From Leifsonia shinshuensis (GTDB lineage: Bacteria > Actinomycetota > Actinomycetes > Actinomycetales > Microbacteriaceae): a stretch of 64,000 nt of DNA. The notes below the pieces were generated by a model. That model was not told where the DNA came from, did no database searches, and saw only the letters and a list, made by a program, of their open reading frames with translations. Each line of letters opens with the position of its first letter. Positions within the stretch are counted from its first letter, which is position 1. The position numbers were made by a program, and so were the translations under genes. Location: the NCBI RefSeq assembly GCF_013410375.1, contig NZ_JACCFL010000001.1:2046001-2110000 (forward strand). The letters are read 5' to 3'. Shown here piece by piece: positions 46,406 through 48,014 of the stretch.

Positions 46406-47272
46406 TCAGGGCAGCGTCAGGATCTCCGCGCCGCGCTCGGTGACGACCAGCGTGTGCTCGAACTGGGCGGTGATGCTGCGGTCACGGGTGACCACGGTCC
46501 AGTCGTCCGCCCACATGTCCCACTCGCTCGTGCCGAGCGTGAGCATCGGCTCGATGGTGAAGACCATCCCGACCTCCATCACGTCGTCGAAGGCGGGGGC
46601 GGCGTCGTAGTGCGGGATGATCAGCCCGGAGTGGAACGCGGCGCCGACCCCGTGGCCGGTGAAGTCGCGCACCACGCCGTAGCCGAAGCGCTTGGCGTAC
46701 GACTCGATGGCGCGGCCGATCACGTTGACCTCGCGCCCGGGGGCGACCGCCTTGATGCCGCGGTTCAGCGCCTCCCTGGTCCGCTCCACCAGCAGGGTGA
46801 CCTCCTGCGACGCGGTCCCGACGATGAAGGTCTGGTTGCTGTCGCCGTGGAAGCCGTTCGTGTAGGCGGTGATGTCGATGTTGACGATGTCGCCGTCCTC
46901 GAGCATGGTGTCGTCCGGGATGCCGTGGCAGACCACCTCGTTGACCGAGCTGCAGATCGACTTCGGGTAGCCGCGGTAGCCGAGCGTCGACGGGTAGGCG
47001 TCGTGCTCGATCAGGAACTCGTGGCCGATCGCGTCCAGCTCCTCGGTGGTGATGCCCGGGCGCACCGCCTCGCCGACCCGTTCGATGGCCCGCGCGGCGA
47101 TCCGGCCGGACTCGCGGATCAACTCGATCTCGGCGGGGGTGTACACGTCGCCGCGGTCCGAGGGCGCCGGGCCCGGCTTGCCGACGTACTCCGGCCGGGG
47201 GATCCGGGACGGGACGTGGCGCAGCGCGGTGACGCGGCCGGGGACCAGGTGACCGGCGGAATCCTTGGGCAT
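46406..47272 (-). CDS. map: Type I methionine aminopeptidase
   Basis: Removes the initiator methionine from new proteins. The N-terminal ~35 residues (HLVPGRVTALRHVPSRIPRPEYV) are the extension that contains a proline-rich ribosome-binding-type motif in actinobacterial MetAP. The pita-bread core follows with VCHGIPDDTMLEDGDIVNIDITAYTNGFHGDSNQTF (two metal aspartates), GHGVGAAFHS and FTIEPML. The frame is open to 47509, but ATG 47272 fits the family and the predicted transcription start. 288 residues. Confidence 0.95.
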   Translation of the reverse strand: MPKDSAGHLVPGRVTALRHVPSRIPRPEYVGKPGPAPSDRGDVYTPAEIELIRESGRIAARAIERVGEAVRPGITTEELDAIGHEFLIEHDAYPSTLGYRGYPKSICSSVNEVVCHGIPDDTMLEDGDIVNIDITAYTNGFHGDSNQTFIVGTASQEVTLLVERTREALNRGIKAVAPGREVNVIGRAIESYAKRFGYGVVRDFTGHGVGAAFHSGLIIPHYDAAPAFDDVMEVGMVFTIEPMLTLGTSEWDMWADDWTVVTRDRSITAQFEHTLVVTERGAEILTLP

Positions 47273-47277
47273 AGGAT
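47272..47277 (+). promoter_or_regulatory. -10 element giving leaderless SPOR-like gene
   Basis: TAGGAT ends 7 nt before the ATG at 47285; GTGACC 17 bp upstream (47249-47254) is a fair -35. It overlaps the map start codon. Confidence 0.65.
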
Positions 47278-47279
47278 CA

Positions 47280-47285
47280 AGCTTA
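47280..47285 (-). promoter_or_regulatory. -10 element giving leaderless map
   Basis: Minus-strand TAAGCT ends 7 nt before the map ATG (47272) and overlaps the start codon of the divergent gene. No good -35 is visible. Confidence 0.5.
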
Positions 47286-47497
47286 TGACCGGCGAGAACG
47301 ACTACGGGATCAAGCAGGATGCCGAGCACAAGTACTGGTACAACATGAAGACCGGCCAGGTCGAGCAGGGTTTCCTCTCGCCCGCCCCGGACCGCGTCGG
47401 CCCCTTCGACACCCGCGTGGAGGCCGAGCACGCGCTCGAGAAGCTCCGCGAGAACAGCGCGAAGTGGGCCGAGGAGGACGCCGAAGAGGGCCGGTGA
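47285..47497 (+). CDS. Small SPOR-like domain protein
   Basis: A 70-residue protein, MTGENDYGIKQDAEHKYWYNMKTGQVEQGFLSPAPDRVGPFDTRVEAEHALEKLRENSAKWAEEDAEEG. The core KYWYNMKTGQVEQG...DRVGPFDTRVEAEHAL resembles the strand-helix unit of SPOR domains, but it has no signal peptide or membrane span, so a peptidoglycan role is not implied. Start fixed by the -10 spacing. Divergent from map with overlapping promoters, and 10 bp before the DUF6194 gene. Confidence 0.75.
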   Translation: MTGENDYGIKQDAEHKYWYNMKTGQVEQGFLSPAPDRVGPFDTRVEAEHALEKLRENSAKWAEEDAEEGR

Positions 47498-47507
47498 CGT
47501 CGCCCGC

Positions 47508-48014
47508 ATGACGATGGAACGGATCCTCGCCGAGGTCAGAGGCTTCGACGGGGTGCTTGAACTCGCGCCGGAGCCCGGTAGCGCGTACCCCGAGATCTCG
47601 TGGGGCGACCACTACTTCTACTACGCGCCGGACGGCGTGGTGCCGACCAAAAGGCAGCCGTACGCGACGATCGTGACGAAGGACTACCCGGACGACGTCG
47701 AGTCGCGGCTCGGCGATCCCGGCCGCTGGCGGCTCAACATCCACGTAGGCCCGAAGACGGCGGCCGAGCTGGTCGCCGGAGCGACGGCCGGCTACGACGC
47801 CGAGGACGTCTTCCTTCCGCACCCGCTCTACGGCGACTACGGCTGGGTGTGCGTCGTGAATCCCGGCGCGGCCACTCTCGAGCGCGCACTCGCGGCGCTG
47901 CGCGACGCGCACACCGAGGACCGCCGCCGCGTCGAGCGCCGCCAGGCGACCACCGGCCAGGCGACCACCGGCCAGGCGACCACCGGCCAGGCGACGACCG
48001 GGGAGAACGCCTAG
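47508..48014 (+). CDS. DUF6194 family protein with C-terminal tandem repeat
   Basis: 168 residues; no known biochemical function. The conserved part (about 1-145) has GSAYPEISWGDHYFYYAPDGVVPTKRQPYATIVTKDYPDD, WRLNIHVGPKTAAEL and HPLYGDYGWVCVVNPG. The tail repeats QATTG four times from a 15-bp DNA repeat and is probably disordered. ATG 10 nt after the SPOR-like gene, so they likely share a transcript. Its TAG stop shares CTAG with the stop codon of convergent panB. Confidence 0.8.
   Translation: MTMERILAEVRGFDGVLELAPEPGSAYPEISWGDHYFYYAPDGVVPTKRQPYATIVTKDYPDDVESRLGDPGRWRLNIHVGPKTAAELVAGATAGYDAEDVFLPHPLYGDYGWVCVVNPGAATLERALAALRDAHTEDRRRVERRQATTGQATTGQATTGQATTGENA
47943..48002 (+). repeat. 15-bp tandem repeat in the DUF6194 gene
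   Basis: GCGACCACCGGCCAG is repeated three times exactly, with a fourth variant copy (GCGACGACCGGGGAG). It keeps the reading frame; copy number could vary by slippage. Confidence 0.9.

Follow-up and report, generated by a model that had tools for sequence, protein, structure and literature searches.

A putative bidirectional promoter for two predicted leaderless genes within 18 bp of Leifsonia shinshuensis DNA, with counterparts across the Microbacteriaceae

Based on a detailed comparison of related genomes, we propose that 18 bp of Leifsonia shinshuensis DNA, located at positions 47270..47287 of the window (the whole 64,000-nucleotide stretch that was analysed), very probably operate as a bidirectional promoter for two leaderless genes, with the transcription starts and leaderless translation being predicted. 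The element, CATAGGATCAAGCTTATG, holds two ATGs and two -10 hexamers on its two strands. The observed basis for the proposal is this anatomy, the conservation of both -10s, an excess of mirrored motifs that is specific to the register, and the recurrence of the layout at other gene pairs.

The two start codons are divergent and separated by 12 bp. On the plus strand, TAGGAT (47272..47277) precedes the ATG of a small gene (47285-47287) with a spacer of 7 nt, and on the minus strand TAAGCT (47285-47280) precedes the ATG of map (47272-47270), again with a 7-nt spacer. Re-reading of the sequence places all four elements exactly where a previous sequence-only reading of the window had put them. The first T of either hexamer pairs with the A of the opposite gene's ATG, i.e. 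-10 and start overlap reciprocally on opposite strands, an arrangement in which both hexamers are found in all 43 fused loci described below. A candidate weak -35-like sequence, GTGACC (47249..47254, plus strand), is located 17 bp upstream of TAGGAT, within map codons, and its function is doubtful. The corresponding 18-mer pattern, CATANNNTNNANNNTATG, has one match in the 4.42-Mb genome, namely 47270-47287; as a reversed-pattern control also matches once, the single match is weak evidence, and it is conservation that carries the case.

The minus-strand gene, map (46406..47272), is predicted to be leaderless and encodes a type I methionine aminopeptidase of 288 aa (TIGR00500, 305.9 bits at a cut-off of 171.35; Peptidase_M24, 179.9 bits). 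Its plus-strand neighbour (47285..47497), likewise predicted to be leaderless, encodes a protein of 70 aa that is recognized by its conservation, with matches in 193 of 199 family genomes; at the level of the order, a profile matched 173 of 198 genomes, including all 14 family members among them. The previous label 'SPOR-like' is poorly founded, with the SPOR domain PF05036 reaching 17.2 bits, under the curated cut-off of 21. A profile search against PDB sequences gave a best E of 0.51, the structural model is weak (mean pLDDT 65.6; three strands and one helix), and Foldseek returned no match to the model at E up to 0.001. The 70-aa protein is conserved over most of the order, without a clear family. 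Where the small gene occurs without an adjacent map (L013, L014, L022, L026 and similar loci), it is often found near ppgK, and several of these copies are preceded by a TANNNT of their own, with a 6-nt spacer to the ATG. The adjoining DUF6194 gene (47508-48014) contains a short tandem repeat at its end, near 47945-48000, that encodes ATTGQATTGQATTGQATTGE.

Within the genus, all 28 genomes searched contain CATANNNTNNANNNTATG one or more times, and the 25 loci examined from them have map and the small gene without exception. In a set of 60 genomes, the real 18-mer pattern was detected in 39, as compared to 7 for an A/T-swapped control. For the family, we collected 130 small-gene loci from 129 genomes (one genome gives two); as these are the best-scoring loci from the 193 family genomes that carry the small gene, distant relatives are under-sampled. 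A divergent map starting within 150 bp of the small gene is found at 90 of the 130, and the other 40 were set aside (37 without map found next door, 3 with map further away). The map -10, in the form TANNNT, is kept at all 90 map-adjacent loci, with a spacer of 7 nt in 78 and 6 nt in 12. An opposing plus-strand TANNNT starting opposite the A of map is found in 76 of the 90, while at other offsets between -30 and +39 the same motif occurs in 0-9 of 90 loci. The small-gene ATG is in frame at exactly +13 in 43 map-adjacent loci from 18 genera, as counted by hand from genome codes, and these fused loci, selected by start position alone, have both hexamers in 43 of 43 cases. The previous proposal of two leaderless promoters, with -10s that overlap each other's start codons, is thereby supported for map throughout and for the opposing side at most loci, but does not extend to the 14 that lack the opposing -10. 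The 18 bp had been suggested for comparison in relatives, where loss of one -10 would have spoken against the proposal, and both -10s are conserved in the genus and across most of the family. In a second set, of 80 named loci that overlaps with the 130, both -10s are present in 49 of 49 map-adjacent loci, of which 30 are fused at +13, 14 at +12 and 5 displaced.

The pattern of conservation in the 43 fused loci follows the two hexamers. A1 and T5 of the plus-strand -10 and A8 and T12 of the map -10 are invariant, whereas T0 and A13 are fixed because they are imposed by the two ATGs. Information at the free positions is 0.60-0.75 bits for positions 2-4 and 0.90-1.29 bits for positions 9-11 (1.29 for the G at 9), and the inter-hexamer positions 6 and 7 reach 1.42 (C) and 0.98 bits, respectively. 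The central bases are thus conserved beyond what two bare TANNNT boxes need; relatedness of the loci may explain this, as may a further constraint.

At 46 of the 90 map-adjacent loci the small-gene start is displaced, being found at least 33 nt from the A of map according to the best choice of ATG and Shine-Dalgarno (SD) sequence, with an in-frame GTG or TTG nearer than the chosen start in some of them. L158, where an ATG at +13 is out of frame, was placed in this set with a start chosen at 81. The plus-strand TANNNT stays in place in 33 of the 46. Leaving out L158, all 32 displaced loci that retain this -10 have an SD-like match of at least 4 nt before the chosen start, and in 15 of them the match is at least 6 nt, 4-nt matches being weak on their own. 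Among the displaced loci without the shared -10, 7 of 13 have a TANNNT upstream of the relocated ATG, at a spacer of 6-8 nt. With starts at +13 (43 loci), at +12 (one locus, L145, which is fused without a plus-strand TANNNT) or at least 33 nt off, the start therefore either coincides with the predicted transcription start or is distant enough to leave room for a leader, and the plus-strand -10 usually outlasts relocation of the small-gene start. On a map-protein tree, obtained using a quick search and a simple model, the fused or displaced state changes at least nine times, with three changes forced by strongly supported branches. All 14 +12 loci of the named set are from Agromyces and have two spacers of 6 nt, 13 of them reading CATAGGATCAGCCTATG and one having a single base changed. 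As both spacers are 6 nt, the absence of one central base shortens the two at once.

Leaderless spacing predicts that mirrored motifs are in excess only at spacers of 6 or 7 nt. This was tested with patterns of spacers 5/5, 6/6, 7/7 and 8/8 in the same 150 family genomes, which matched 8, 66, 73 and 6 genomes and 8, 87, 83 and 9 loci, respectively. The reversed-pattern control gave 23, 17, 31 and 18 loci, and hence does not track the peak at 6/6 and 7/7, yet at 7/7 it exceeds a third of the real count. Loci per pattern and controls are sums over genomes in which orthologous loci are counted repeatedly, and the map locus itself accounts for at least 33 of the 83 at 7/7. Coding-like genes on both sides, as judged from ORF length and GC by codon position, were detected at 17 of 30 fetched 6/6 loci and at 10 of 20 further 7/7 loci, the latter taken in listing order with known map loci and earlier hits left out; two of these ten (L459 and L460) are further map/small-gene loci. 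At the control spacings, such genes were detected at none of 8 loci with 5/5 and none of 9 with 8/8. Two loci failed the coding test despite their appearance by eye, the 5/5 control L446 with two plausible genes and the low-GC 7/7 locus L464 with upp/tadA.

The fused layout is also found at pabB/pabC, upp/tadA and PPK2/DUF255, as identified by protein inspection, with Pfam applied to one locus per pair. The divergent pabB/pabC pair displays the 6/6 or 7/7 form in many genera (L395-L403, L405, L406, L411-L413, L462, L463, L468, L470, L477 and L035; Pfam on L395 only), upp/tadA is fused at L409 and others, and the PPK2 gene and that of a DUF255 protein are fused at L407. In another family, the genes of a low-molecular-weight phosphatase and an endonuclease-exonuclease-phosphatase protein, identified in the same manner, are fused at L219. 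Among 15 other 18-mer hits inspected, a long frame is confined to one side in several cases, as would arise by chance. In one genome (G009), a second exact copy of CATAGGGTCAAGGGTATG occurs at L216 and is not convincingly flanked by genes on the two sides. The upp locus was studied further. It adjoins tadA in 29 of 30 fetched loci (L331-L360), and in all 29 the upp ATG is preceded by a TANNNT at 6 or 7 nt and overlapped by a reverse-strand hexamer. CATA is in the fused register in three, and the remaining loci usually have a longer gap before tadA. The source genome's own upp (L336) has a half-fused form, and judged from its motifs upp would be a second instance of this design, fused by half. 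As the same geometry is present at other divergent pairs, the map locus therefore belongs to a design that recurs at the family level rather than being a unique oddity, and the 'extreme case' of the sequence-only reading does not hold as a one-off.

The surrounding genome is rich in starts of this type. Across 464 kb of the source genome, TANNNT precedes in-frame ATGs of putative genes 30 times at 6 nt and 17 times at 7 nt, as compared to 0-4 times at each of the other offsets from 0 to 39, and leaderless-type starts were assigned to 66 of 475 putative genes. The sample contains six other divergent pairs with two leaderless-type starts, 23-132 bp apart. A rule whereby every leaderless start bears a reverse -10 was rejected, since only 2 of the 47 leaderless-type ATGs, those of map and upp, do so; among other in-frame ATGs the reverse hexamer is found at 5 of 1355. 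Outside the family, 46 order loci were analysed, 13 of them without an opposite-strand map; in 24 of the other 33, a possible map start is preceded by TANNNT at 5-8 nt, using a permissive map-start test, and a leaderless map therefore probably predates the fused layout. The 18-mer has 52 matches in the 184 order genomes outside the family, with 29 for the control, suggesting a small excess of the mirrored motif there. Spread through the class was considered and discarded: a 17-mer gave 29 matches and its reversed control 18 in 148 genomes, and only 1 of 24 class-wide 17-mer loci is flanked by coding-like genes on both sides.

We propose that the element works as follows. With either -10 ending 7 nt before its ATG, transcription would begin at the A of the ATG, i.e. 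at 47272 and 47285, 13 bp apart, and the mRNAs of both genes would lack a leader and be read from a 5' AUG. The -10s lie side by side, with the first T of either pairing with the predicted +1 A of the other gene. RNA polymerase would bind in one of two opposite orientations, melting nearly the same dozen base pairs. As the melted regions would be nearly identical DNA, the geometry suggests that only one polymerase could initiate at a time. Competition between the two genes, or a tie of map expression to the small protein, as envisaged in the sequence-only reading, would be a conjectural step beyond this.

Two alternatives concern the nature of the motifs. Only map might be leaderless, with the AGGA in TAGGAT acting as a Shine-Dalgarno sequence and the promoter of the small gene located further upstream within map. 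AGGA is indeed found 8 nt before the small-gene ATG in the source genome, and 21 of the 43 fused loci have an SD-like 4-nt core at the small gene. However, the other 22 lack a core even though TANNNT is present in all 43, the hexamer, unneeded by an SD sequence, stays in 33 of the 46 displaced loci, and mirrored motifs are rare off register. The coreless fused loci and the TANNNT kept in displaced loci led us to reject the Shine-Dalgarno sequence as a general explanation, and we consider this arrangement improbable. On the map side, no SD sequence is visible in the source genome, and a 4-nt SD-like core is present in 4 of the 43 fused loci. Alternatively, the 18 bp may be a palindrome-like binding site of a regulator rather than two -10s, compatible with the pseudo-symmetry of the element and with a centre (ATCAA in the genus) that is conserved more than two -10s require. 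Such a site is highly unlikely, as the free bases vary among loci even inside the genus, other gene pairs have only the TANNNT frame in common, and both hexamers are retained through the one-base change of spacing in Agromyces. -35 elements were also considered and are unhelpful as an explanation: for the 43 fused loci, the mean TTGACA match at spacers of 15-19 is 3.12 of 6 on the small-gene side as compared to 2.40 in shifted windows, a weak excess that may be codon-driven, and the map side shows none (2.53 versus 2.89).

A further question is the purpose of the packing. The overlapping promoters may be real while their packing has no regulatory role, as two promoters can collapse onto each other by drift and deletion. 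This reading differs in purpose only, is compatible with the bidirectional promoter proposed above, and is on balance favoured. A route is conceivable in a leaderless-rich group, as a -10 on the other strand ends in TA and addition of TG yields ATG. Leaderless-type starts are common in the source genome, as noted above, the changes of state on the quick map tree indicate that the fused or displaced condition is readily lost or gained, and several pairs, e.g. PPK2 and the DUF255 protein, have no obvious common pathway. On the other hand, pabB and pabC act in one pathway, the fused state is maintained at map in 18 genera, and the opposing -10 remains in most displaced loci despite the moved start. 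A more ambitious and rather doubtful possibility is a Microbacteriaceae promoter class (registers 12 and 13) in which each -10 templates the first start-codon base of the other gene, and which is kept, and formed again at unlinked pairs, because forced polymerase exclusion determines the ratio of paired housekeeping genes or makes them less noisy. The packing is more simply accounted for by compaction of two promoters that are each useful on their own.

The bidirectional promoter proposed here joins the study of leaderless genes with that of bidirectional promoters, in a very tight form: a pair of promoters, along with the transcription starts and start codons of both genes, would fit into 18 bp. 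At such a site, mutating a base of one promoter can also change the neighbour's start codon, and one deletion changes two spacers. The same gene pair is found fused (7/7 and 6/6) or displaced with an SD-led start, providing a natural series for switching between leaderless and leadered translation, and equally for asking whether, at native promoters, polymerases of opposite orientation limit one another. If there is no coupling, the locus is still a clear case of the limit of promoter compression.

Comparisons to already described systems place the element between two known classes. As in ordinary divergent pairs, the genes face apart with their promoters between them, but the gap here is 12 bp and either promoter reaches the other gene's start codon. 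In Actinobacteria, TANNNT is located approximately 12 bp upstream of leaderless translation starts, and on average about 19 percent of genes are leaderless (PMC3160421); in M. tuberculosis, leaderless genes, defined by a transcription start within 5 nt of the start codon, have TANNNT without a conserved -35 (PMC3898074). The present genes resemble these in having TANNNT about 12 bp before the start (map in 90 of 90 map-adjacent family loci, the small gene in 43 of 43 fused loci), where no consensus -35 is needed; the excerpts of PMC3160421 and PMC3898074 treat leaderless genes singly and contain nothing on two starts fused in one patch. Bidirectional promoters are defined by divergent starts 7-25 bp apart with reciprocal overlap of -10 and start (PMC10268837), and opposing polymerases cannot bind to them together, as reported by Warman, Grainger and colleagues (PMC10268837, PMC12825309). 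In E. coli, basal activity was too low for polymerases to compete at any of the five bidirectional promoters tested, but activating one direction could lead to repression of the opposite one and cut cell-to-cell variation (PMC12825309). The predicted starts, 13 bp apart, fit the 7-25 bp range and the reciprocal overlap (PMC10268837), while the common distances in E. coli are 18, 10 and 23 bp (PMC12825309) as compared to the predicted 13 or 12 here. The word 'leaderless' is absent from the excerpts of these two accounts (PMC10268837, PMC12825309), and in the portions of the open-licence literature searched we found no description of two leaderless starts fused in this way. By sequence, the element therefore belongs to the known bidirectional promoters, but, in contrast to those of E. 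coli, its two -10s occupy separate bases and incorporate the start codons, making it a new, fused leaderless form.
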